From Gammaproteobacteria bacterium (GTDB taxonomy: Bacteria > Pseudomonadota > Gammaproteobacteria > Xanthomonadales > SZUA-36), in contig JAJFLB010000032.1 of NCBI GenBank assembly GCA_021772915.1, positions 1 through 64,000 of the forward strand: 64,000 nt of DNA. Direction: 5' to 3'. Both the position numbers and the translations under genes were made by a program. Shown here piece after piece: positions 18,931 through 32,406 of the stretch; within the stretch, counting starts at the first letter, position 1; each line of letters opens with the position of its first letter. A model generated the notes under the pieces. That model did not search any database, was not told the DNA's origin, and saw only the letters and a program-made list of their open reading frames with translations.

Positions 18931-19019
18931 ACGGTTGCCGGTGACAGGGACTGCATAGTCGACCGCGCCAGGCCAACTTCTGTTACAGGTTACCCACCAG
19001 ACGCGGCTATCGCTGTGGG

Positions 19020-21050
19020 TTAGAGGCTGCCGGTCCGCTTATCCCGTGCGGTCTTTTTTTTAACCAGGGCTTGTCCCGGCGGTGGCGGGGCTGAAAAATC
19101 CTGCCAGTGATAGCTGTGACAATGTGTACATTGCTGTTGCACGCGGTTGCCATTGTGGCAGCCGGTGCACTGATCATTTTTGATCGGGTGATGGTCAGCT
19201 AAAGCGACAGGGTCCGGTTCTTCGCCGTCTTTTAGTTGGTGGCATTGGTCACAACTTTGACCAACGGCAATATGCGAAGCATGGGTGAATTCGGTTTTGC
19301 GTGGCGATACTTCGATCAACAAACGTAGCGCATACACGCCATCTGGCGTTGCAATGCCATGGCATTTCGCACATTGGAATTGTGCGTCTTGCTGCAGGTC
19401 TTGGGGGTAGTCTGAAATAACTTCTGCCAGACTTTTCATCAGCGTGTCCCGATGCTGCTGTGAAACGTACGACAAGGCCATGTACGACGATTTAGCCTGC
19501 AGATACCAACCTGAATTGCCACTGATGTGTTTCTTCTTTTTCTCAATGAAACCACGCATTGCGGACCATTCTTTTGAATCCGGGCAACTGCCGCCATGTA
19601 TTTCCGCTTCGGGTTGTAATTCCTCATCAAGACTGGGGAACCAACTCTCCGCCAACCGGCGACGTATGTCAGCAGGTACCTGGGCAATCACCCGTGCCAG
19701 GCGCGAATTACTGATTTTGCGGTGTTGGGAACCTGGTGAAAACCGCTCCACCGCATTGTCGGCCGCAAAATCCTGCACCATGGCCTTGATCGACCAGGCC
19801 AATTGCGTGGCCGCGGCACGCTCTTTGTCGCTGGATTTTTTCATCAAGTGAAGCCTGGTCTTTTGACTTTCCAGCAAAGCAATTGCCGCACTGGCCGCCA
19901 CGTCGGTTTCCAACATTGCCCGCATTACCAGTGGCATGTCGCTCAACCGTTTAAAACGAGTGGTGCGGCAATTGGGCCAGTAGCCGATGGCCAGTTGTTT
20001 TGTGTCCAACCGGGGTATGGCAATCAAACTGGTCGGACCGATAGCATCCAATTGTTTGTCGATAATATCCGGACGTAAATGGCAATCCGCGCACATCAGA
20101 TCAAAACCGGTAAATTGCAGATCGTCATTGCTGTCGATCCGGTGACAAGTCGTGCAATTTGCAGGGACATGCTCAAGCAGGTTGTTCTTGGCAAAATGTT
20201 CCCTGTCGTGTCGTTGATGATCGAATAGTATCTGTGGTGTTATTGCCGGTAGCCGCTTAAAGGCCGGATGATCACGCGCAAAGGACATGTGCTTGCTGAG
20301 GTGGCAAACCTGACATTGACCATCTGTCAACGCCTTGATTCCATTGGGTTCATCCTGTTGATGTATGCTGTGGCAAGTTGCGCAGGCCACCGGCCTATCA
20401 CGCATGTATTCCTGGTCGGAGGTCTGTGCAAGCCGGATGCTTATGGCATTCAATACGCTGACCGCTTCGCCGTGGGGCACAAATGCATTTTCAGCGGTGA
20501 CATGACAACCCAGACATTTCCTGCCGACATCCTGATGTTCGTTATTGAAACCCGCCACACCCATACCGAACAGCTCCGAGAGATTTGTGGCAACCTGTGT
20601 ATGGCATTGGCTGCAATCCTCAATAAATACGTGCTGACGGTTCGCAGGCCCGGGATCAATAAAACTCATGAACTGTTGGCCCGCGCTCAGCAGTGCGATC
20701 AGACCCAGGGCAATGGCAACACACCATCCTACAAATCGTCCCCGTATCTTGCGTTGACTCAGTTGGGGACTGCAAGGCGGCAACTGCCGGCAGCAATGAC
20801 CACTCGAATCCGGACCAGTGATGCAGGGCCCACCCGCCGATTGCGGCAGTCCACACTGCCACTGTTTGCTCTTGCGTACCGGTTCGCACAGACACCTGGG
20901 TGCTGCTCCTTTTTGCGCGTACGGGCAGCGACCTTTTCTATCTGGTCCCTGATTGCAGACCTGCCCACCACGCCCGCCGCCACATACCCATTTCTGGGTT
21001 ACACGGTCATACTGGCTCTCATCGTAGTTTATGGACTGTATGCGTTTCAG
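19020..21050 (-). CDS. Decahaem c-type cytochrome with cytoplasmic Cys-rich N-terminal module
   Basis: Last gene of the redox operon. Ten CXXCH sites follow a single membrane helix: CSQCH, CLGCH, CATCH, CQVCH, CTTCH, CADCH, CAKCH, CDQCH, CTGCH and CTHCH. Before the helix (GWCVAIALGLIALLSAG, about residues 107-123) there are two copies of a Cys motif, WVCGGGRGGQVCNQGPD and WQCGLPQSAGGPCITGPD, each ending GxC (about 21-42 and 64-86). By topology this module is cytoplasmic and the haem part periplasmic. A helical stretch of about 220 residues splits haems 6 and 7. The start is uncertain. No ATG, GTG or TTG suits. CTG at 21050 overlaps the upstream stop as CTGA and has AGGAG 8 bases before it; that gives 676 aa. 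The frame is open further back inside the cytochrome b gene. Confidence 0.9.
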   Translation of the reverse strand: MKRIQSINYDESQYDRVTQKWVCGGGRGGQVCNQGPDRKGRCPYAQKGAAPRCLCEPVRKSKQWQCGLPQSAGGPCITGPDSSGHCCRQLPPCSPQLSQRKIRGRFVGWCVAIALGLIALLSAGQQFMSFIDPGPANRQHVFIEDCSQCHTQVATNLSELFGMGVAGFNNEHQDVGRKCLGCHVTAENAFVPHGEAVSVLNAISIRLAQTSDQEYMRDRPVACATCHSIHQQDEPNGIKALTDGQCQVCHLSKHMSFARDHPAFKRLPAITPQILFDHQRHDREHFAKNNLLEHVPANCTTCHRIDSNDDLQFTGFDLMCADCHLRPDIIDKQLDAIGPTSLIAIPRLDTKQLAIGYWPNCRTTRFKRLSDMPLVMRAMLETDVAASAAIALLESQKTRLHLMKKSSDKERAAATQLAWSIKAMVQDFAADNAVERFSPGSQHRKISNSRLARVIAQVPADIRRRLAESWFPSLDEELQPEAEIHGGSCPDSKEWSAMRGFIEKKKKHISGNSGWYLQAKSSYMALSYVSQQHRDTLMKSLAEVISDYPQDLQQDAQFQCAKCHGIATPDGVYALRLLIEVSPRKTEFTHASHIAVGQSCDQCHQLKDGEEPDPVALADHHPIKNDQCTGCHNGNRVQQQCTHCHSYHWQDFSAPPPPGQALVKKKTARDKRTGSL

Positions 21051-21877
21051 AGACCGTACTCCTGGCGGAATGTATAAATTACAAATGCATGCAGCAGGAT
21101 AAATACCCAACTTGTGTAGTTCAATGCGATGTGGACGTAAGTCCATTTCCTTAACAGCATTTGCAATGCATATTGTCGATCAAGATTCTGCTTGATCTGG
21201 ATGATCTCCTCCAATTCTGCCACGTACTTCCTGGAATCAGGGTCGACATGACGATCGATACTCTTCAACTGCTGCAACAATCGGCCAGCGTGCTCTGCTC
21301 TGTTGACACAGTGCCGAAAGTACTCACGGGAACGACTCAAGTACGACCTCAGATGGAGGTTATGAAATTCAAGGAGCGGCAGACCACCACCAGTAGCAGA
21401 AGCTGCAAGGACCACGTACTCAGCGCGTCGATACTGGGCTTCGCGCAAGTGGGGGACACGCTCGAACTGAATTCGCTCACCACCTGCAGCGATACGCGGC
21501 GGCAAGGTCAGCGTGAACCACAACCCGAGAATACCGCTGAGCAACAACAACATATACATCAGCCACAATGACAGATTTAACCAACCAGCGGGTGGCACGA
21601 TACCCGCATGGATGAGAAAGAACGTCACAGTCAGCCAGCCAAGAAAACTGTGTACTCTGCGCCAGTACCAGACGCGGCCCATCGGTAAGCTGGATATTTT
21701 TTTACGCAAATTGTAGGTCGCCAGCAAAATGTGCAATCCAACCAGCAACCAGCCGGAAAAAAGCGCAACATCGACCAACCGGACGTCGTTGTACCATTGC
21801 CCGTACAAAATGACGGCCAATACTAACACCAGGAACACGGTACCGCGCCAACGTAATTTCACTACCGATTCAGCCAT
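21047..21877 (-). CDS. Membrane cytochrome b-like protein, probable dihaem
   Basis: 276 aa with about five membrane helices (about 12-28, 35-55, 72-92, 100-122, 247-270). Two of them carry histidine pairs 14 residues apart: His76/His90 (RRVHSFLGWLTVTFFLIHAG) and His249/His263 (YVHIALNYTSWVFILLHAF). This is the spacing of ferric-reductase/NOX-type helices that hold two stacked b haems. A large loop (about 125-245), rich in Arg, Glu and His, sits between helices 4 and 5. It would pass electrons across the inner membrane. Its start overlaps the ferredoxin-fusion gene by 16 bp, and its stop overlaps the presumed CTG start of the decahaem gene, so translation is coupled. Family assignment is by pattern only. 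Confidence 0.8.
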   Translation of the reverse strand: MAESVVKLRWRGTVFLVLVLAVILYGQWYNDVRLVDVALFSGWLLVGLHILLATYNLRKKISSLPMGRVWYWRRVHSFLGWLTVTFFLIHAGIVPPAGWLNLSLWLMYMLLLLSGILGLWFTLTLPPRIAAGGERIQFERVPHLREAQYRRAEYVVLAASATGGGLPLLEFHNLHLRSYLSRSREYFRHCVNRAEHAGRLLQQLKSIDRHVDPDSRKYVAELEEIIQIKQNLDRQYALQMLLRKWTYVHIALNYTSWVFILLHAFVIYTFRQEYGL

Positions 21878-23613
21878 CGCACCAGTGCTTCACGATCGGC
21901 GGTATCAATGCGTACGAGTGCATCATGCGGACAAGCCCGTTGGCAGGCAGGCCCCCCTAGCTGATTGATACACAGGTCACATTTTGAGGCTTTTCGTACC
22001 GCTTGTCCGGTTTGCTCATTGATGATGGTCCTGCCTCTTCGGTCGCGAATTTCCACCATGCGGATATTGTCGTAGGGACAAGATTGGGCACAACTGCCGC
22101 AACCAATACAGGCGCTGTCATCAATCGTGATCACCTGCTCCCCGGAATTACGCACGATCGCCCCGGTGGGGCAATCCACAATGCATACATTATCCCGACA
22201 ATGCATACAGGCATTGGCGAACTGAAGGTTGCCGTGCTGCAATCCATGGCGTATGAACCTGGGATTATTATCATGGGCCACGGCACAGGCGCGGACACAC
22301 TCATCACAGCCGACACAGCGATTAAGGTCTATCAACATCGTGGCCGTGCCGTTGACGACACGCTTGTCCAGCAGGTCCTCCATTAGCGATTGGTCAAGTT
22401 CGCCCCGATCGTTAAACGTCGGTGCAATTTCACGTAGACGTTGCTCATCTTTTATCCAGCCACCAGTGACCAGTGCCGGCACAATATGGCTAACCACCAA
22501 ATGTGTGGGAATTCGTATCAGGTCGACATAGCCGATTGCCTTGAGTGAGAAGGGTGAGATCAATGGCCTGTCAGGATCGTTGACATGCGCGATGACGCCG
22601 TCCAGACCGAACATCTGGTTTTGAGTCAGGTAAGCAACGGTACGTTCGCCACCGCCATAGGTTTCCAGCACACGCGCGAACCCACCGCGAATCAATAACA
22701 CCCCATCAAGATACGCATCTTTCTTAATGATATGTATTTCGTCGCCTGACTCATCTGGCAGTTCCTCAAGCTTGCCCAAAGCCCGGTACCAGTAGGTGTC
22801 ACCAAACTGTTCAAAACTGGACTGTCTGGCGATTTCAGCGAGTTGATTCTCCGGCAGCAACTTGAGCACGGGATTCTCCGCCAGCAACGGCAACATTGAC
22901 CGCCCGGACAACAATTTATCCACCCAGCTACGAAACTTCGTGCTGAACTTGCGCAAATCCCTGAGCCCCTGCCAACGCAACTCATACAATTCGATTTCTG
23001 TCGCTGCGAAGATCATCGCAGAACGAGGCGCACGCGTCAGGGCGCTGATCTCACCAAAAAAAGCACCTGGACCCATGACTTTCGTATTATTTTGCCCAAC
23101 AATTTCTTCGATATTTCTCAGTACGTGAATAACCCGACCATGACTTTCACGGGTATTGACTGAATTCTGCTTCCCGTAACCAGCCGTATCCCTGCTTTCA
23201 GGGCAGGCGTTGTTCTTCAGGTGTTGCCTGATGGCATCCAGAACTCCCGTAATCTTCCGCTTTTTGTTCTCAATGGCCGCCCTGTCAATGGGTGATAGCA
23301 GGATTCTGCACTGTCCTGTCAACAGCAAAAAACAACTGGTTCCATAATCGCCAATATGGGTAATCACGTCGCCCGGCTTATGGTGGGTGATACGACCGTC
23401 GAATTTGAGAATATCCTGCATGGCCAAACCAGACCTGAATTGTCCTTCATCAAGCAAACTGAAGGGTTTGTTCGCGCTTATTAAGGCCAGTTTTTCAACC
23501 CCCAAACTGTCGGGGTCGCCAAACGGTTTGTCCCACCGGGCCGGTGGTGGAATACGGTGAATACGATCAGCAGAGCTTTTTGGGCTGCCCGCTGTTATTC
23601 TTGCTTCACCCAT
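21862..23613 (-). CDS. Two cyclic-nucleotide-binding domains fused to a four-cluster 4Fe-4S ferredoxin
   Basis: 583 aa, no signal peptide, cytoplasmic. CNB domain 1 (about 60-230) has the phosphate-binding cassette GAFFGEISALTRAPRSA (183-199), with Glu and Arg in the canonical places, and a long insertion (about 107-165). CNB domain 2 (about 245-380) has a degenerate cassette around MFGLDGVIAHV. The C-terminus (about 425-575) is a DmsB/HybA-like polyferredoxin with sixteen cysteines in four groups: 433/436/439/443, 469/472/477/481, 502/505/508/512 and 545/548/557/561. It may deliver electrons to the cytochrome b encoded next, with cyclic nucleotide as a gate; that is inference. It lies 8 bp after the tetrahaem gene. 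Confidence 0.92.
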   Translation of the reverse strand: MGEARITAGSPKSSADRIHRIPPPARWDKPFGDPDSLGVEKLALISANKPFSLLDEGQFRSGLAMQDILKFDGRITHHKPGDVITHIGDYGTSCFLLLTGQCRILLSPIDRAAIENKKRKITGVLDAIRQHLKNNACPESRDTAGYGKQNSVNTRESHGRVIHVLRNIEEIVGQNNTKVMGPGAFFGEISALTRAPRSAMIFAATEIELYELRWQGLRDLRKFSTKFRSWVDKLLSGRSMLPLLAENPVLKLLPENQLAEIARQSSFEQFGDTYWYRALGKLEELPDESGDEIHIIKKDAYLDGVLLIRGGFARVLETYGGGERTVAYLTQNQMFGLDGVIAHVNDPDRPLISPFSLKAIGYVDLIRIPTHLVVSHIVPALVTGGWIKDEQRLREIAPTFNDRGELDQSLMEDLLDKRVVNGTATMLIDLNRCVGCDECVRACAVAHDNNPRFIRHGLQHGNLQFANACMHCRDNVCIVDCPTGAIVRNSGEQVITIDDSACIGCGSCAQSCPYDNIRMVEIRDRRGRTIINEQTGQAVRKASKCDLCINQLGGPACQRACPHDALVRIDTADREALVRWLNR

Positions 23614-23621
23614 TTAATTGC

Positions 23622-24596
23622 TTATTGTTGGGGTTCACCAAGGTACTCGCCCCAGGACTCGATCAGCGCATCCAGTTCCCCCAGATCAGCCCCTTTCTCT
23701 GACAATGCCATTGCACTGGTCGCAATCGCAGTGACCGCGGCGGTCACGATTGCATTATCCATCGGCAGGGTCATATTCATATCTTCAACTTCCGCATAGA
23801 TAGCCTGAACCTGTGCAACCCCGGTTTTTGCGGCCATATTCCCGAGCGTTGACCTGGCTTTTTGTAAGCGCTTCAGCAAGGCTTGGGCGTACTTTCCGTC
23901 TTTATCTTCGATTCCAGCGATGGCCTTCAATCCGATTTCCAACTCAGCTGCGACTCCCATGACGGCCATCATTCTTTTGCGCTCGGCAGAGGCTTCATTG
24001 TTATCAACAGTGTAAAACGTATTGTGCCTGATTTTACCCTGGCTCCATGTGACCAGATTAAATTTGCTGCCCGCAGCATGGCCGCCGGTATTGACCAGGG
24101 CCTCCTGTGGCACCAGGTGGCAACCCAGGCAGTTTCTTGCAAAGGCATACACATTTCCGGGACGTATCAGGCCTGCTGCCTCCGCTGCGGCCCAGAGTTC
24201 TATTTCCTCCTCTGAGGTCTTGTTTTCCTTGCCGTGCGGCTTGTTCCAATCCACACTCGCTCCGTGGCAGGAATCGCAACTAACCCCGGCAATAACATCT
24301 GCTGGCTCGTCTTCACCTTCAGATTGTAGTGTCAGGTGGCAAGTTTGGCAGAGCTCAGCTTCCACCACGTCATCCAGGTCCATTTTTTCGCCAATGGCAA
24401 CGCCATCTTCAGAATCAGGCATGCTTTCATACGTTAGAGAATGCGGAGTTTCCTCCCAGATTCGGTATTCAACTCGATGGCACTCCGCGCACTCTTCCGG
24501 TCCCGTCACCCGCCATGGATCCGGCGATGCCGGGCTTGATTCAATACCAGCCACACATAACAGCACAAATCCGATCTTTACTAATCTTCCCAGCAT
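23622..24596 (-). CDS. Tetrahaem c-type cytochrome, c554-like
   Basis: 324 aa with a signal peptide (MLGRLVKIGFVLLCVAGIES). Four CXXCH sites lie in the N-terminal half: CAECH (in GPEECAECHRVEYRIWEETP), CQTCH, CDSCH and CLGCH. Further histidines such as TPHSLTY and PHGKENK can act as distal ligands, as in the cytochrome c554 family. The C-terminal half is a haem-free Ala-rich helical region. It is a probable periplasmic electron shuttle. The start at 24596 follows GGGGGA by 6 bases; a longer frame to 24686 would overlap the reductase gene and has no such site. Confidence 0.88.
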   Translation of the reverse strand: MLGRLVKIGFVLLCVAGIESSPASPDPWRVTGPEECAECHRVEYRIWEETPHSLTYESMPDSEDGVAIGEKMDLDDVVEAELCQTCHLTLQSEGEDEPADVIAGVSCDSCHGASVDWNKPHGKENKTSEEEIELWAAAEAAGLIRPGNVYAFARNCLGCHLVPQEALVNTGGHAAGSKFNLVTWSQGKIRHNTFYTVDNNEASAERKRMMAVMGVAAELEIGLKAIAGIEDKDGKYAQALLKRLQKARSTLGNMAAKTGVAQVQAIYAEVEDMNMTLPMDNAIVTAAVTAIATSAMALSEKGADLGELDALIESWGEYLGEPQQ

Positions 24597-24678
24597 AGTT
24601 TTTCCCCCATGTAGTTTGACTTGCCTGACCAGCGTTCCACATCTCGTAATTGCCAAAGATTTCTGACTATGGGAGTCA

Positions 24679-25974
24679 CTATGCATCTAGAACCAAATTG
24701 GTTTTTGGCACACCGATACAGACCAGACAATTACCGGTATGCACGTCAAACCGGGGCTCTTTGTCGGGATACTCCACCTCACCACTGATTATAGCAATTT
24801 CACAGGTACCGCAGTCGCCGCAGCGGCAACCGCAATCGAGAGGTACATCATTGGCCTTGGCAACTTCCAGAAGGGACCCGCTGGCGGGTTGCCAGTCGAT
24901 AGTTCTGCCACTGCGGCGGAATTTGACAGTGTGTTGTACCTTCGTTTCTTCGGCGGTCACTTCGACACGCGACTTGAGTTGTTTGATTGATTCCGGTCCA
25001 AAGGCCTCATAATTTATCATTTCTACAGGTACACCCCATGCCTCGAGGTCACCTTTGATGGCTTGTATCATCGGCGGCGGACCACAAAAATAGAACTCGG
25101 GCTGCCGGTGGTCGCTAACATCAATGAATTGGTCCGGCAGATTGAGTTCTTCTTTTATCCACGCAACTTCAATGTAACCCTTGCGGTGGTAATGTCTGGA
25201 GAGTTGGCAGGACGAAGTCGGATCACTGAACGCAAAACGCAGGTGAAATCTGCTACTTTGACTGACCGCCCCCAGCAACTCCTCCCGATTGAGTACCTGG
25301 TGTTGGTTCATCACGCCGTAAAACAACCACACCTCCCGACTGGCGCCGGTATTGGCCAAGTGACGAAACATGCTCAACAATGGGGTGATCCCAACCCCAC
25401 CAGCGAGCAACACCACAGGGCGGTTTGATAGTTCATTCAGGTGAAATGACCCTTTCGGAGCGCGTACATCGACCAGATTGCCCTCGGATATTCCCGCATG
25501 CCAGAACCCGGAAACCAGACCGGCTGGAACATCGGGCTTACCTCTTGGCGCCGGAATGCGCTTTACCGAAATCCGGTAGCCCTCCTGATGATTGCCCAGG
25601 GGAGCGTCGGACAGCGAATAACAACGAATGCCTGGTTTCGTCTGGCCGGGAATCTGCAATCGAAATGTAAGGTGCTGGCCCGCTTTAAAATCAGGTACCG
25701 GCAGACCGTCGTGGGGCCTCAGATAAATGGAAACGATGTCCTCACAGGCATCCACTTTTTTCTCTACAATAAATTTGCGATAACCGTCCCAACCCAGGCA
25801 CTGTTGGCGCTGACGTGATGACAGAACTTTTATTTGCAGTTCCAGGTTTTGGGTGCGCAATTGCAGTTCGCGCAACCTGTAACGCCGTTGCCGCCAAGCC
25901 GACACCAGGGCTGTCAGGACCCCTGTAAAAGCCAGGGTCAGTAACGCTGCGCCTCCCCATTGAAACAAGGTCAT
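24679..25974 (-). CDS. Membrane-anchored FAD/NAD(P) oxidoreductase with C-terminal 2Fe-2S domain
   Basis: 431 aa. An N-terminal helix (about 6-27) anchors it, followed by a coiled coil (about 30-58). The FAD-binding motif is RCYSLSDAP (117-125). The NAD(P)-binding parts are LLAGGVGITPLLSM (about 189-202) and FYFCGPPPMI (about 294-303). The plant-type 2Fe-2S domain at the C-terminus has C383, C388, C391 and C419 or C416, in CGCRCGDCGTCEIA and GNCLVC. The order FNR-then-ferredoxin resembles Hcr or flavohaemoglobin-type reductases. It would oxidise NAD(P)H on the cytoplasmic side and feed the operon's carriers. It lies 9 bp after the beta-barrel gene. Confidence 0.92.
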   Translation of the reverse strand: MTLFQWGGAALLTLAFTGVLTALVSAWRQRRYRLRELQLRTQNLELQIKVLSSRQRQQCLGWDGYRKFIVEKKVDACEDIVSIYLRPHDGLPVPDFKAGQHLTFRLQIPGQTKPGIRCYSLSDAPLGNHQEGYRISVKRIPAPRGKPDVPAGLVSGFWHAGISEGNLVDVRAPKGSFHLNELSNRPVVLLAGGVGITPLLSMFRHLANTGASREVWLFYGVMNQHQVLNREELLGAVSQSSRFHLRFAFSDPTSSCQLSRHYHRKGYIEVAWIKEELNLPDQFIDVSDHRQPEFYFCGPPPMIQAIKGDLEAWGVPVEMINYEAFGPESIKQLKSRVEVTAEETKVQHTVKFRRSGRTIDWQPASGSLLEVAKANDVPLDCGCRCGDCGTCEIAIISGEVEYPDKEPRFDVHTGNCLVCIGVPKTNLVLDA

Positions 25975-25983
25975 GGTGCTTGC

Positions 25984-27435
25984 TTAGAATGTGAAGTTAA
26001 TTTCCGTACGTATGACAATATCAGTGCCCCGTTCATCCCCATCGACTGCAAACACATTGGTGTGTAACAGCCAGCGTTGTCCCAGGGCATGCTGATAACG
26101 CAAACCCACGCCCCCCAGGTTATCGTTTGCAGAACCCGTACGATCATTACGCACACCCAGTTCCAGAATCAGGTTACTTCGTTCATGCTTAAAAAACCAC
26201 TGATAACCGATGGCCAGACCAATAGCCTCGCTGGATTGGTTTGACATCGGTGCGGCCAGACGCCCCAGACCCGGCGAAGCAAACAGTATACCGGTCCTGC
26301 CAAGGGGCCCACCGGTAGTCTCACCTCTGGATGCCGAGGTATAGTCTTCGAAGGCAGCAAACCCGTTGATGTAAACAAGGTTGTGGGTACCCAATGGAGA
26401 CCGGGAAAGTTCAAAAAACAACAATAAACCATCACCGACCGCGGCAGATTCCTCGTCCAGGGCATGGGAGGCGTTGACCCTGATAGTCGAATTCCAAAAC
26501 CCAAAACGTTGGGTGGAACCATAGCCCAGGTAGAGACCATCGCCGGTCTTGTCACTGTGTACGTAAACAGCATCAAACTCGATGGTGCTGTGCAGGGTAT
26601 CTGTCTCACTAAACAAACCCAGTAAACGGGCATCGTCATCGTCGCGGTTGTCGGCGCGATTAACATCATTCCATGCGAACAAAAATGTCACTCGGGTCGA
26701 GGGGGACTTGTCAAACAGCTGCAGGTTGTTCCTTACAATGCCAACGGCGTCCATGGTGTCATCAATCAGGATGCCATCTTGAAAATTGAGAGGTTGGCGA
26801 CCGATGGAAAAACCGTAATCATGATTTTTTTCCAATCGTGGGTCATGGTCACTTTTCTGTAGATTGGGAAACAGCTCACCGAAATCACCCTCAAACCACA
26901 ACTGTTCAATATTGCCGTTGAAGACGCCGTTGTAACCATCACCTGAATCAGGGGTGAATTGATAGTTGGTAAACTCGGCGTTGTCATTTAGGGGAGTGAA
27001 GCCCAGGACGATCCGTTCGGTTGCGGACAACTGCAAGTTGAACGCTAACTGTGCACTGACGGCAATTTCCCCAAGCTTGATGTCAGCATCTGAATCCGCC
27101 CAGTTCAGTGTGCTGCGCAGACCACCGAACAAATAGAGCGCCGGTTGCCAAACAGCCCCCGTGGGGAGTTCAAAGCCGGGATGCAACTTGCCCAGACCCA
27201 GCAGATCCGGTCCCCACTCCAACGGTGGGCCTGTTCGTGTCATTGCGCATGGATTGGCGATGGGTGGCAAGGACTCATCTTTGCTGGGGTCTTTGGTCTC
27301 ACAATCCCCAGGCTGGAACGGTTCAGGAAGCCTGACGACCTCATCGGACAGCGCCGCACCTGACCCCGCCTGGCCGATAGCGGGCATGGCGAGGACCAGC
27401 ACCGTGTAAAAAACCCCCATGATGTTCTTAGTCAT
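25984..27435 (-). CDS. Outer-membrane beta-barrel protein of the redox operon
   Basis: 483 aa with a signal peptide (MTKNIMGVFYTVLVLAMPAI, cleavage near GQA-GSG). The mature part is rich in alternating aromatic/polar strands (FGFWNSTIRVNAS, GLLLFFELSRSPLG, NLILELGVRNDRT, GVGLRYQHAL) and ends in the aromatic residue of INFTF, the usual C-terminal signature of barrel proteins. An alginate-export/porin-like fold is plausible, with the pattern YGFSIGRQPLNFQDGILIDD seen in such barrels. It is much smaller than MtrB-type barrels. The preceding gene's stop overlaps a possible GTG start at 27465 (GTGA); the ATG at 27435 gives a better signal peptide. Its place between cytochrome genes suggests a conduit or substrate pore; that is inference. 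Confidence 0.85.
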   Translation of the reverse strand: MTKNIMGVFYTVLVLAMPAIGQAGSGAALSDEVVRLPEPFQPGDCETKDPSKDESLPPIANPCAMTRTGPPLEWGPDLLGLGKLHPGFELPTGAVWQPALYLFGGLRSTLNWADSDADIKLGEIAVSAQLAFNLQLSATERIVLGFTPLNDNAEFTNYQFTPDSGDGYNGVFNGNIEQLWFEGDFGELFPNLQKSDHDPRLEKNHDYGFSIGRQPLNFQDGILIDDTMDAVGIVRNNLQLFDKSPSTRVTFLFAWNDVNRADNRDDDDARLLGLFSETDTLHSTIEFDAVYVHSDKTGDGLYLGYGSTQRFGFWNSTIRVNASHALDEESAAVGDGLLLFFELSRSPLGTHNLVYINGFAAFEDYTSASRGETTGGPLGRTGILFASPGLGRLAAPMSNQSSEAIGLAIGYQWFFKHERSNLILELGVRNDRTGSANDNLGGVGLRYQHALGQRWLLHTNVFAVDGDERGTDIVIRTEINFTF

Positions 27436-27461
27436 CTGACAATTGCCACGATCGTTTGCGG

Positions 27462-29360
27462 TCACAAGACGCGACAGACGTTGTTATTAAACTGACATTC
27501 ACCCTTTTTAAATGCCTCTGCGGTACATTGGTCCTGCTTATCGGCGACCGGCATATCGGTCAGTATCCGACCATCCCGAGCGATGCTGAGTCTACGCTTC
27601 CACAGGGTTTCGGCACCACTAACCACCTGCTCGGCGACACTTTTTGGACTCATTTCATAATCAAAACCGGCGGCTGCAACAGCCGCGACCAGGTTAACCG
27701 GCACCATTTGTATGATCAGCGAAATTTCTGCGCTTAGCGGCCAGTTGACTGCCACTGTATCCACCTTGTAAACCGCTTTCCGGGAGCCATTGGCCTTTAA
27801 CACCCGCCGATGTTTTCGGGCGCCCGCCGGTCTGCCATAGAGGGTGCTGGGTCTTAGCTCTGGACGTATGAAGGGCAATGCGCTGAGTGACCAGTTCACT
27901 GCCAGCACCTGCTCGCGTTCACCGCCACGCGCCAGTTTGACAAGAAATTTGGACTGTAAATTGAACAGGTCTTTATCCAACGGGATATCACCGTTTGCGA
28001 CATGTAAGGAATGCGTGTCTCTCAAATCTCCATTGGGATCCCGGTCTCCGGATATATAAATCTGCCGTCCGTGGCTGTCCTTGATATCGACCTCGAGAAA
28101 GATAATCCGCTCGGCATCAAAGCCCGTAGGGACATTGTGTCCGTCGGTGCCATTGCTTACGATGGCGCTCAACCTCAATTTGTCACCCTTCAGACTGGAG
28201 TCCAGCTCTCCCAGCACAAAGCCATTGCGCAAAACTTCAAGCCTTTGCTCGCGGGCCCAGTCCAGGGTTTCACATTGCTCTACAATCAGGCGTCGGGCCG
28301 CCTTACGGTGACTGGTTGTTCTCCAGGCCCGCGGAAACCTGGTGTTTTTGGCGGTTTGTTTTTCAAAACCTGTCTCACCCCACCCCGCTGCATAGTCGAA
28401 CAATATCCAATCCCGCAAAGTTTTTTTGCGCAGGTTCCTGGGTGGATTCAATTTGTGCGGGAAAATGCCCGGATGGATGATGGAATGATCCGGTCCGGCA
28501 AAATAGTGGTTCGTGACTTTACGTTCAGGCGTATCCGTATTGACGATTCGCGCTGCAGGCCCGTACTCGTACCCCTCGTCCCTGCCTTGCACGCGGCCCA
28601 TATGGCAATCCTGGCAAGTTACGCCACGTTGGATGGCCGGTGAAGTCTTGTAATCGCTAAAGGCCTCTTCAAGGCGGAATCCGTTCACCAGCAACACGTC
28701 ATGACAGCTGGCGCAGAATCGTGAGGATGTCAGTTCAAAAAAGTGATCGACTGCAGCGTGGACCTTCTTACCCCGGGTATTATTGGGATCAGTTGACAGG
28801 TTGCGATAGGTTTCACGGTCCGCGAGTACGGCTTGCAGACCGGCGTCCCCTTGCGGGCCTTTTACCGGCGCAACCAGGGAGCCTTCATCAAGTGCCAGAC
28901 GTCCGGATATTTTTCCATAAGCCTGTGACACCCGGTGGCAGACTATACACGTGACCCCTTCCCTGGAAGCAGGGTTTCGGTCAAGGTTGGTTAATGCCAG
29001 CGGCTCCTCGATGTCGGTCCCAACGGGGTTATGACAACGCAGACAGAAGTCACCATTAGAGACACTGGTCTTGAGATTGATTGTGGACTGCATGGCCATG
29101 TACACCGGACTTAACTGCGCGTACGCATGTTGGGATACTGACCACTCCCGGTATTGCTTTGGATGGCAACTCGCACACCTGGCCGCCGGCGGGTAACGGT
29201 CTTCCAGGGCAATTTGCTCGTGTGCAGTCCGGGTATCCACGGCTGTGGCAGCAGCAATGCTGAAAGTTGCGAAGACAGAAAGTACGGCCAACGTGGCAAG
29301 CAAATGGGGCAAAGAAAATCCTCGACCCAATATTAATTGGTCCGCTTGATCAGAGCACAT
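27462..29360 (-). CDS. Pentahaem c-type cytochrome, first gene of the redox operon
   Basis: 632 aa. The N-terminal hydrophobic segment (LLATLAVLSVFATFSIAAAT, about 20-40) is a signal peptide or anchor. Five CXXCH sites follow: CASCH (ARCASCHPKQYREW), CLRCH, CIVCH, CASCH and CQDCH, all within the first half. Histidine-rich linkers such as HNPVG, DHSIIHPG and FPHKLNPP may supply distal ligands. The C-terminal half has the motif GTDGHNVPTGFDAERIIFLE and beta-rich sequence seen in large c554-type multihaem proteins. The ATG at 29360 is chosen over TTG 29408, which lies too close to a candidate promoter. The last residues overlap a possible GTG start of the barrel gene, so the operon begins coupled. 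Confidence 0.88.
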   Translation of the reverse strand: MCSDQADQLILGRGFSLPHLLATLAVLSVFATFSIAAATAVDTRTAHEQIALEDRYPPAARCASCHPKQYREWSVSQHAYAQLSPVYMAMQSTINLKTSVSNGDFCLRCHNPVGTDIEEPLALTNLDRNPASREGVTCIVCHRVSQAYGKISGRLALDEGSLVAPVKGPQGDAGLQAVLADRETYRNLSTDPNNTRGKKVHAAVDHFFELTSSRFCASCHDVLLVNGFRLEEAFSDYKTSPAIQRGVTCQDCHMGRVQGRDEGYEYGPAARIVNTDTPERKVTNHYFAGPDHSIIHPGIFPHKLNPPRNLRKKTLRDWILFDYAAGWGETGFEKQTAKNTRFPRAWRTTSHRKAARRLIVEQCETLDWAREQRLEVLRNGFVLGELDSSLKGDKLRLSAIVSNGTDGHNVPTGFDAERIIFLEVDIKDSHGRQIYISGDRDPNGDLRDTHSLHVANGDIPLDKDLFNLQSKFLVKLARGGEREQVLAVNWSLSALPFIRPELRPSTLYGRPAGARKHRRVLKANGSRKAVYKVDTVAVNWPLSAEISLIIQMVPVNLVAAVAAAGFDYEMSPKSVAEQVVSGAETLWKRRLSIARDGRILTDMPVADKQDQCTAEAFKKGECQFNNNVCRVL

Positions 29361-29417
29361 ATTGCATTTTCTCACTGGTTCCCATGTCCATGACGAGCAC
29401 TTTCTCAATCTACCACC

Positions 29418-29423
29418 AGTATA
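29418..29423 (-). promoter_or_regulatory. Candidate -10 box for the redox operon
   Basis: On the minus strand TATACT lies about 58 bp before the chosen ATG at 29360. The -35 is weak (TTGAGA with a 19-base spacer). This is the only near-consensus -10 that I see in the 277-bp divergent gap 29361-29637. No FNR- or CRP-like palindrome was noticed. Confidence 0.35.
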
Positions 29424-29567
29424 GTCAGGGATCGTACGAAAATCTCAAAGTACCGCTGAACCCAAAAAATTCGGGCCCGGGCAATAATTGTATCAATGGT
29501 TCAGATGACTTGTGTTAAGCCCGTTCATTTTTGCAAGAACCACTGGTGCCCTCCCTTTGCCCCGGAC

Positions 29568-30430: not shown

Positions 30431-30757
30431 TCAGACCAAAACGCTACGTCCCTGCCAACGATCCTGGTTACAGGCCTGTATGCAGTCCCTGCTCGTACAG
30501 GTTTTGCACTTCTCGGTCAATTCGTTCCGAATCGCCAGCATGCCGCCACGTCCGTAGGTCCCAAGTAACAGGCCAACCGGACAGAAGCCCCTGCAAAAGG
30601 CGCAGTCCTTGAATACAAATTCGACAATCGCAGCCGTACCCAGTAATACAGCGGCCCAGACCATCGCGGGCCACCACAGACCCCAAACAAAAAGTTGTAC
30701 CTGGCGACTTCGCCGACAATTCTCCTTGAATTGGTGAATCCAACCCCGGAAATGCAC
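30431..30757 (-). pseudogene. Remnant of a membrane polyferredoxin (NapH/NosR/CcoG-like)
   Basis: 108 codons hold one membrane helix (GLWWPAMVWAAVLLGTAAIV). After it come CAFCRGFCPVGLLLGTYGRG and CKTCTSRDCIQACNQDRW, the 4Fe-4S signatures of NapH-type membrane ferredoxins. Full-length relatives have several helices before this segment. After DRWxxRS they continue with a CPS segment and a further Fe-S cluster. Here the reading ends at GRSVLV just after that point, and no matching sequence follows. I read it as a fragment left by deletion at both ends, although a short expressed protein cannot be excluded. It lies on the same strand as the redox operon about 1.1 kb upstream. The rest of 30397-31009 has no gene that I can support. 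Confidence 0.6.
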
Positions 30758-31009
30758 CTAAAGCAAGCGCTATTCTGCCAGAAATCCTGGCCTATTGGGA
30801 CTGTTTCTGACGAGGGACTTGGGGCGGACACTGCTTTGTAAAAAATTGACTTTGCGCGTTCAATCGGGGCGACCAAGGCAATGCTTTTGGAGGGGGAAAA
30901 TGCAACAATGCAGGTGTTTAGACTGCACACCCAAATAGTTTGCACTCCGACCCCATTTGTCCATGGGTTCAGTTAGAATTAACCCCGCCACCGATTTTTA
31001 GGGACGATC

Positions 31010-31747
31010 ATGGATAGCTACCTCATATCAATCGCAGGGAATATCGCTGCGGGGAAATCCACCCTGACCAAGGCCCTGGAAAAGAGGAGCAACGGCAAGA
31101 TAGTTTCCTTTTTGGAGCGGGTTGATTATGTCAAGCAGCATGGCTATCTGCAGCAGTACTACAAAGCCGTGAACGCCTATGACCAACTGAAAGGAGAGAA
31201 GCTGGATGGCAAAGACCCCGGTGGATTCCTGAAGGTAAAGGAAGAGGCCGAGTACTGGGGCTACAAGATCCAGGAAACCTATTTCCTGTCACGCTTGCTG
31301 GACCTCGGCGTCCTGAATGAACTCCTCCGCGAGGGCCAGTCGGTTGCCCAGGACCGAAGTATTTATGAAGATCAGATTTTTACCAAGAACTCCAACAACT
31401 ACGAATATATTACCGACGAGGATTACAGAAGGTACCAGGATCTGTTCAAATTGGTGATGAACAACAAGCCAACACCTGACCTCATCATCTATCTCGAGAG
31501 CGACGTGGCAACCCTCAAGGCGCGAGTCGTGGAACGAAGCCGGGGGGAGGAGTCAGAACTTGCCAGCCCGGAGAACGCCTATCTTGCCAATCTCAATATC
31601 CTCTACCGGCCATGGATCATGAGATGCGGCTACCCTTACCTCATCATCGACACCGAGGCTGTCGACTTCAGAAGTGATGACGGCTTGGAACAGGTTGTCC
31701 AGGGCATCATCCAGGCCGTGCCGGGGACCGGGAGACTGTTCGAATGA
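31010..31747 (+). CDS. Deoxynucleoside kinase, first of a tandem pair
   Basis: 245 aa. The P-loop is ISIAGNIAAGKSTLTKAL (about 6-23). The DRS motif is AQDRSIYEDQIF (about 114-125), and the Arg-rich lid is ARVVERSRGEES (about 170). These are the marks of the dNK/dCK/dGK family, which phosphorylates deoxynucleosides in the salvage pathway. The usual substrate-side E-P motif reads ERVDY here. The stop overlaps the start of the next kinase by 4 bp (ATGA). AGGGA precedes the ATG. Such kinases are patchy in Proteobacteria. Confidence 0.88.
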   Translation: MDSYLISIAGNIAAGKSTLTKALEKRSNGKIVSFLERVDYVKQHGYLQQYYKAVNAYDQLKGEKLDGKDPGGFLKVKEEAEYWGYKIQETYFLSRLLDLGVLNELLREGQSVAQDRSIYEDQIFTKNSNNYEYITDEDYRRYQDLFKLVMNNKPTPDLIIYLESDVATLKARVVERSRGEESELASPENAYLANLNILYRPWIMRCGYPYLIIDTEAVDFRSDDGLEQVVQGIIQAVPGTGRLFE

Positions 31748-32406
31748 AGCATATCATCGGGATAATGGGGAACATCTCTGCAGGTAAGACCACACTGTGT
31801 AAACTGATTGAAAAAAGATGGGATTATGTCTTCTACCCTGAAGAAGTGGATGAACTGGTGCTCAACTTCTACTATGGTGACCGTAAAGAGCATGCCTATA
31901 ACACCCAGGTATTTTTTCTCTCCAGCAGATTCAGAAACTGGTGGCACATGACCATCTCACCGAACTCGGGTGTAACCGACCGCATCAAGGAAGAGGATAT
32001 CCACATTTTCACGGAGAAGAACTACCGTGACAAGTTCCTTTCCAAATCGGAAAAAATGATTCTCACGCACCAGTTCGATGCGATGAAGCACAATATCCCG
32101 GAGCCTGACCTGGTGATCTATCCACACACGGAGGTCGATGAACTCAAAGCCAGGATAGAGAGAAGACTTCTCAAGGAAGGCAAAGTACGTGAAGGAGAGA
32201 GAGGGTTGCTCGCGACTGGCGATAATTACCTGGAAGACCTGAACGTCCTCTATGAGGAGTTCTACCCTCGTTACCAGGGTAATAAGCTCTGGATTGACAG
32301 CAAGGATTGGAAACTCGTCGATGACGAGGGATCAATCAGGTATGAGAGCGAAGAGGCCGACAAGTTGCTCCGGCTAATCAAGGTAACCCTCGACCAGTCC
32401 GGCTAG
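31744..32406 (+). CDS. Deoxynucleoside kinase-like protein, second of the pair
   Basis: 220 aa. P-loop IIGIMGNISAGKTTLCKLIE (about 4-23). The counterpart of the DRS motif is VTDRIKEEDIHIF (about 78-90). The lid-like segment is KARIERRLLKEGK. It is clearly related to the upstream kinase in layout but diverged in sequence. Paired, overlapping deoxynucleoside kinase genes that work as heterodimers are known from lactobacilli (dAK/dGK); a heterodimer here is inference from the ATGA overlap and the family. It could instead have a distinct specificity. Confidence 0.85.
   Translation: MKHIIGIMGNISAGKTTLCKLIEKRWDYVFYPEEVDELVLNFYYGDRKEHAYNTQVFFLSSRFRNWWHMTISPNSGVTDRIKEEDIHIFTEKNYRDKFLSKSEKMILTHQFDAMKHNIPEPDLVIYPHTEVDELKARIERRLLKEGKVREGERGLLATGDNYLEDLNVLYEEFYPRYQGNKLWIDSKDWKLVDDEGSIRYESEEADKLLRLIKVTLDQSG

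Follow-up and report, generated by a model that had tools for sequence, protein, structure and literature searches.

Where do electrons enter, and where would they leave, an operon that combines a flavoprotein reductase, a polyferredoxin with cyclic-nucleotide-binding (CNB) domains, 19 c-type haem motifs and an outer-membrane barrel? This question is raised by a 64,000-nucleotide stretch from a Gammaproteobacteria bacterium (contig JAJFLB010000032.1, assembly GCA_021772915.1; hereafter the window), in which seven consecutive open reading frames (ORFs) on the minus strand, here called genes A to G, occupy positions 19020-29408. The set is conserved among relatives of gene A from several phyla; the system is thus widespread, and our searches met no description of it. 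The reading that we favour with moderate confidence is a CNB-gated electron-export chain that would run from NAD(P)H to a pair formed by a PHC-family pentahaem cytochrome and a porin.

Gene A (27462..29408, minus strand; likely start ATG 29360) encodes a pentahaem c-type cytochrome related to PHC, c552 and ExtKL proteins, and overlaps by 4 bp with gene B (25984..27465, minus), which encodes an outer-membrane porin-like barrel of ~18 predicted strands without a Pfam or NCBIfam family. After a gap of 9 bp follows C (24679..25974, minus), an FAD/NAD(P)/2Fe-2S reductase that, judged by eye, is membrane-anchored by an N-terminal hydrophobic helix. The ORF of the tetrahaem c554-family cytochrome D (23622..24596, minus) opens at 24686; its likely start, ATG 24596, is preceded by a purine-rich stretch and would leave a C-D gap of 82 bp. 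E (21862..23613, minus), with CNB domains and four predicted [4Fe-4S] clusters, lies 8 bp further on and overlaps by 16 bp with F (21047..21877, minus), a candidate di-haem b-type cytochrome. The decahaem cytochrome G (19020..21050, minus), with a Cys-rich N-terminus and one membrane anchor, has an uncertain start: its ORF opens at ATG 21146 inside F, while CTG 21050 corresponds to the start position of its relatives.

A preliminary description made from the sequence alone had reported seven same-strand genes with short gaps or overlaps, 5 + 4 + 10 CXXCH motifs, an FAD/NAD(P)/2Fe-2S reductase, a 16-Cys polyferredoxin fused to CNB domains and a membrane protein with two His pairs, and each of these elements was confirmed. 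The 19 CXXCH motifs fall in A (5), D (4) and G (10), compared with nine scattered over all six frames in the rest of the window. Every haem-motif Cys and His of the three cytochromes reaches at least 96% conservation over the aligned rows (78 for A, 39 for D, 34 for G, 31 for E and 47 for F, picked by length and score limits), and so do the four His of F and the 16 ferredoxin cysteines in E. Because they are conserved across relatives, we regard the motifs of A, D, E, F and G as real.

A scan with A of a genome contig collection (84,980 species by its description) yielded at least 507 confirmed relatives. The counts given below refer to the best 80 of these at least 507 relatives (loci L048-L127) and describe close kin of the window's A. 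Genes at the loci were called with hidden Markov models built from proteins of the window and of genomes G412, G155 and G357, at a threshold of 60 bits. Many contigs end early over the 80 loci; 50 loci are roomy, A being followed by 8.5 kb or more of sequence. All seven genes occur together at 31 of the 80 (16 Pseudomonadota, 10 Planctomycetota, 3 Verrucomicrobiota, 1 Lentisphaerota and 1 unassigned) and at 27 of the 50 roomy loci, in line with the earlier claim of one electron-transfer unit. Within the roomy set, B is found at 50 loci, D at 42, F and G at 41 each, E at 37, C at 34 and E, F and G together at 35. Over all 80 loci, A spans 13 named phyla, nearly always next to B, and E+F+G is present at 41, covering eight named phyla and one unassigned locus. 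The commonest order, A-B-C-D-E-F-G, accounts for 20 of the 80 loci, plus three with a second A; elsewhere D-E-F-G stands ahead of A-B-C or on the opposite strand.

The genes are also inherited together. Identity matrices of A correlate with those of C, D, E, F and G (r = 0.75, 0.75, 0.85, 0.69 and 0.82; n = 37, 37, 30, 42 and 33 loci, respectively), and in each comparison 0 of 999 shuffles reached as high a value, shared ancestry of the hosts contributing to these correlations. A tree of A with 78 rows requires 17 changes for the phylum labels combined, where 11 would be the fewest possible, so that transfer between phyla is possible. Near the window the operon is patchy, as judged from sparse full-length matches to E and F: a search of F against 369 genomes of the class returned 23 matches at E ≤ 0.001, with E < 1e-20 over most of F only in the window's own genome, G155 and G357, and among the matches listed for E in 61 relatives, more than 90% of its length was covered only in the own genome and G412. 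The nine congeners, four of whose genomes are less than 90% complete, match only the ferredoxin part of E among the matches listed.

Two further ideas about the spread and composition of the operon were rejected. Plasmid carriage found no support in 72,556 plasmid records: six hold distant relatives of A (21-26% identity) and 484 match E, none covering 80% of either protein, and the ten matches listed for E fall in its ferredoxin part. Nor is there a recurrent eighth partner, the commonest flanking families occurring at no more than 9 of the 80 loci and many being common to related Planctomycetota. The only flanking families that make sense are the FHA and reductase families of loci lacking C, described below.

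By its sequence, A is a member of the PHC family, related to Thermochromatium c552 and Geobacter ExtKL. The family, proposed in PMC11976967, takes in cable-bacteria sPHC/lPHC alongside c552 and ExtKL. A matches Pfam Cytochrome_C554 and carries, beside its five CXXCH motifs, a conserved C-terminal domain with a GHNVPTG motif. In an hmmsearch of the Protein Data Bank (PDB), a profile of 70 A relatives matched the T. tepidum pentahaem c552 (5ze8) at E = 1.1e-15 with all five haem motifs aligned, and a weak second match covered the PTG region of the C-terminal part. A differs from 5ze8 in its length (648 versus 435 residues), in the ~380 residues that follow its last haem motif and in being tied to the barrel B. 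The ExtKL model was matched at E ≤ 1e-5 by 69 of the 70 relatives (best 2.6e-12), with the window's A scoring 32.5 bits against the ExtKL equivalog NF040886, below its curated cut-off of 250. Judged by eye, the N-terminus of A resembles a signal peptide without a lipobox. At three loci (L107, L121 and L114) A and B are fused, each half matching nearly the whole of its own profile and A forming the N-terminal part; most simply, a domain N-terminal to a barrel stays periplasmic. The lack of a lipobox and this fusion make A more likely a periplasmic than an outer-membrane cytochrome. At four loci (L083, L085, L103 and L076) a second full copy of A lies directly ahead of A-B, and at L118 two A pieces resemble one split gene.

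The window's B has no Pfam match at E ≤ 0.1, and none of 67 B proteins matches NCBIfam or Pfam at E ≤ 0.01. Its AlphaFold2 model (pLDDT 86) has ~18 strands, with chitoporin (4e-13), MOMP, the OprD/Occ family and AlgE as the best PDB matches. B thus models as an OprD/AlgE-class porin of ~18 strands, a more precise version of the barrel-type protein described earlier. We rejected assignment to the MtrB class of 26-28 strands on the strand number of the model; MtrB was absent from the 50 PDB matches listed for B, of 809 at E ≤ 10. For MtrB itself, 28 strands are predicted (PMC5877670). B reaches 60 bits at 75 of the 80 loci, the other five being the three A-B fusions and two loci whose contig ends soon after A.

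The remaining proteins would supply the inner part of the chain. C matches NAD_binding_1 (2.1e-17), Fer2 (4.8e-8) and FAD_binding_6 (1.2e-4), and over 38 rows its Cys 383, 388, 391 and 419 are fully conserved and Cys416 is kept in 97%. E, which combines cNMP_binding (62.8 bits) with Fer4 domains, is probably cytoplasmic, inspection by eye showing neither a Tat nor a Sec signal. Its first CNB domain keeps the consensus FGE-AAL-R-PR-A in 31 rows, which we take to be phosphate-binding-cassette-like, and the second is degenerate. A class III cyclase is encoded in 7 of 7 sampled genomes with E; the one sampled genome whose operon lacks E (Nitrospira G808) has none, an anecdotal comparison at n = 8. 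A cyclic nucleotide bound at CNB1 may possibly control electron flow.

The AlphaFold2 model of F (pLDDT 91.6) is helical. It has five long hydrophobic helices, and residues ~121-240 form a helical insert that the positive-inside rule, applied by eye, would place in the cytoplasm. F carries two HX13H pairs in two helices, His 76/90 and 249/263 (H76 conserved at 0.96; H90, H249 and H263 at 1.0), and in the model His76/His249 and His90/His263 would hold the inner and outer haem b. The window's F has no Pfam match at E ≤ 0.1; among 38 relatives, weak matches were obtained to DUF4405 (six), Ni_hydr_CYTB (three), Ferric_reduct (two) and Cytochrom_C_asm (one). G, the sole decahaem of the operon, matches Cytochrome_C7 and Paired_CXXCH_1 and has a membrane-anchor helix and, by eye, no lipobox; its Cys-rich N-terminus would be cytoplasmic. 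All ten CXXCH motifs of G are conserved, with ten non-motif His at 1.0 for ten haems. D (Cytochrome_C554, 3.4e-15) has four further invariant His for four haems, and for its five haems A has four non-motif His conserved at ≥0.99, a fifth at 0.94 and, in the C-terminal domain, another two. The conserved His would thus suffice for bis-His ligation of all 19 predicted haems, which argues for an electron wire rather than a catalytic haem.

Loci related to the window differ in how this set is assembled. In type I, which includes the window, C is present and G has a Cys-rich N-terminus. In type II, E-F-G occurs without C at eight loci (L059, L060, L068, L075, L080, L098, L107 and L121) from Acidobacteriota, Rhodothermota, Myxococcota and Bacteroidota, with a D ORF of seven to eight haems. 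At six of the eight, G is followed on its own strand by a gene from one reductase family, which supports NAD(P)H as donor and bears out the flavoprotein input of the preliminary description; the member scanned (L068) has Pyr_redox_2 and a C-terminal FHA domain. An FHA-family gene lies behind G at four type II loci and before A at two (one scanned, L080), and a seventh member is found far upstream at the type I locus L055. At three Nitrospirota loci without E (L087, L091 and L117), C has only 155-162 residues, with a 2Fe-2S (Fer2) domain as its only domain in L117, the one scanned; the electron donor of these versions must differ.

Type III comprises L024, L025, L026 and L044, and in part L045-L047, sister clusters that would represent further electron-export operons (cluster spans L024:1-12301, L025:665-13001, L026:312-13116 and L044:1-12217). 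Here a Pyr_redox domain is joined to the CNB-CNB-4Fe4S protein (in both loci scanned, L024 and L044), which is accompanied by a cytochrome b, a decahaem, two large haem-less proteins and an ExtM-like decahaem. Type III G has an FHA N-terminus, by Pfam in L024 and by eye in L025, L026 and L046; it is not obvious in L044. The outer part contains an HbpS-like protein (by Pfam in both examined, L022 and L024), a protein of ~630-740 residues with at most a weak porin match, and a decahaem of ~900-1280 residues; all four of the decahaems scanned match the ExtM model in part (E 1.8e-18 to 1.9e-20), well below its cut-off of 800 bits. Genome G155 (L022:482-19501) holds both arrangements, the seven-gene operon and, right behind it on the opposite strand, an ExtM-like/HbpS-like outer module. 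Its 1280-residue decahaem has LVIVD repeats near the end. A flavoprotein reductase is linked to the CNB-ferredoxin in several subtypes. This link thus tends to persist even as the fold of the flavoprotein varies, and the outer part is interchangeable.

We infer the order of transfer, its outward direction, the CNB gating and the acceptor class as follows. NAD(P)H would reduce C through FAD and 2Fe-2S, and C would reduce the four [4Fe-4S] clusters of E, whose activity would be tuned by a cyclic nucleotide at CNB1. From E, electrons would enter F and cross the inner membrane over two stacked b haems, to continue through the inner-membrane-anchored decahaem G and the tetrahaem shuttle D to pentahaem A, docked on the periplasmic face of porin B. 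The last step would take them from A, whether or not B lets substrate in, to an acceptor located at the outer membrane; that acceptor would probably be small and soluble, such as a metal complex, a metalloid or another oxyanion. Of the preliminary description, the reading as one unit with flavoprotein input is supported (31 of 80; 6 of 8); its outer-membrane cytochrome is more likely the periplasmic A.

The same proteins could instead serve electron uptake, with Fe(II), Mn(II), reduced sulfur or an organic compound oxidised at A/B. Electrons would then pass inward along D, G and F and reach E and C, yielding NAD(P)H or reduced ferredoxin. Each part is an electron-transfer module that could operate in either direction, and related Geobacter ext conduits have been linked to iron and manganese oxides. 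We consider uptake quite improbable on thermodynamic grounds, since no quinone-linked or energy-coupling protein that could drive uphill NAD(P)H reduction was recognised among the seven genes; the retained reductase and CNB regulation also fit a drain on cellular reductant. A wire through the outer membrane, with A or D inside B as in MtrCAB/Pcc, reducing solid or external acceptors or oxygen to superoxide, would agree with the A-B fusion and with B standing beside A at every roomy locus. It is nevertheless unlikely, given a modelled OprD/AlgE-class barrel that would be narrow for an MtrA-like insert and seven genes among which no surface lipoprotein cytochrome was recognised. Finally, A might be a catalytic multihaem reductase of the sulfite, nitrite or hydroxylamine type for which B imports the substrate: the A profile is weakly similar to MccA in the PDB (E = 0.003), B resembles substrate-specific porins, and conservation is higher in A than in B or F. 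Against such an enzyme, the five or more conserved candidate distal His leave no obviously open haem among the five, and for no catalytic multihaem family does A score above the curated cut-off; we hold this for decidedly unlikely as well.

Several observations weigh against the export reading that we favour. A and B stand without the other genes within ~10 kb at 5 of the 50 roomy loci, and F and G occur without E (60 bits) at 6 of the 80 (L073, L118, L120 and the three Nitrospirota loci); the genes can thus be separated, as also in E-F-G-like modules that carry other outer parts. The F model finds no Foldseek match in the PDB at E ≤ 0.001. None of the NCBIfam models identifies B as ExtI. Haem-copper oxidase is encoded in seven of eight sampled host genomes, which makes a role in anaerobic respiration less than obvious. 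For Geobacter lacking ExtI, the extI study reports lowered selenite and tellurite reduction, which we count for export, and unaffected Fe(III) citrate and fumarate reduction (PMC5877670), so that this precedent does not fix the acceptor.

Geobacter ext is the closest known system. The cluster extHIJKLMNOPQS encodes porin-like ExtI, pentahaem ExtKL, 12-, 10- and 4-haem cytochromes (ExtM/N/S), Rieske protein ExtO and cytochrome b ExtP (PMC5877670), and its extHIJKL part has no outer-membrane cytochrome (PMC5877670, PMC6148476). Both systems hold a PHC near a porin-like protein, a membrane cytochrome b, and cytochromes with 10 and with 4 haems. ExtI and ExtP are likened to B and F by description; in 398, 7 and 140 genomes searched to reach ExtI, no ExtKL locus exceeded the cut-off. 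They differ in that none of our seven proteins has a Rieske (ExtO) or rhodanese (ExtH) domain, and in an inner-membrane part made here of a flavin reductase, a CNB-polyferredoxin, a cytochrome b without family and a decahaem with a Cys-rich N-terminus. The earlier statement that none of MtrCAB, Pio, Nrf, Mcc and HAO/c554 has this set stood in so far as our literature search, with most subscription journals outside its coverage, found no paper describing or naming it; the list had missed its nearest relative, ext. MtrCAB/Pcc systems likewise join multihaem cytochromes to an outer-membrane barrel, whereas here the barrel would be smaller and of the porin class, the partner is pentahaem, flavoprotein input is the operon's own and no surface cytochrome was recognised. 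NOX and ferric-reductase (FRE) flavocytochromes b have two HX13H pairs. The path proposed here, from NAD(P)H over flavin to two bis-His b haems across the membrane, is like theirs, except that Fe-S protein E would sit between flavin and haem and electrons would continue into c haems. As for homology to this group, two of the 38 F relatives weakly match Ferric_reduct (PF01794, best E 2.1e-4), beside the Foldseek result above.

Outer-membrane electron transfer has mostly been studied in anaerobic metal reducers; here a seven-part system occurs in at least four phyla, and its carriers include the isolates Tistlia consotensis, Thalassobaculum litoreum and Oceanospirillum sediminis, which have haem-copper oxidases and may make knock-outs feasible. 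Two of the seven proteins, B and F, have no described family, and whether a second messenger controls electron flow can be tested directly on this operon. More broadly, and only tentatively, these loci might form a multi-phylum class of machines, also present in bacteria capable of respiring oxygen, in which CNB and, in sister subtypes, FHA domains would directly control the passage of electrons from NAD(P)H through a new family of transmembrane b-cytochromes to interchangeable outer-membrane modules (PHC plus porin, or ExtM-like decahaem).

Around the operon, a promoter scan was uninformative (4 promoter-like sites, compared with 9.1 on average in shuffled sequence). The left flank, a prolyl oligopeptidase gene, has a close relative in eight of the nine congeners (66-83% identity); since the right neighbour is present in only two of the nine, an empty insertion site could not be defined. 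On the minus strand at 30431-30945, short overlapping frames contain, by eye, a Cys-rich 4Fe-4S-like stretch, presumably a remnant of a NapH/FixG-type ferredoxin gene, and on the plus strand at 31010-32406 two adjoining, overlapping genes resemble, also by eye, deoxynucleoside kinases.

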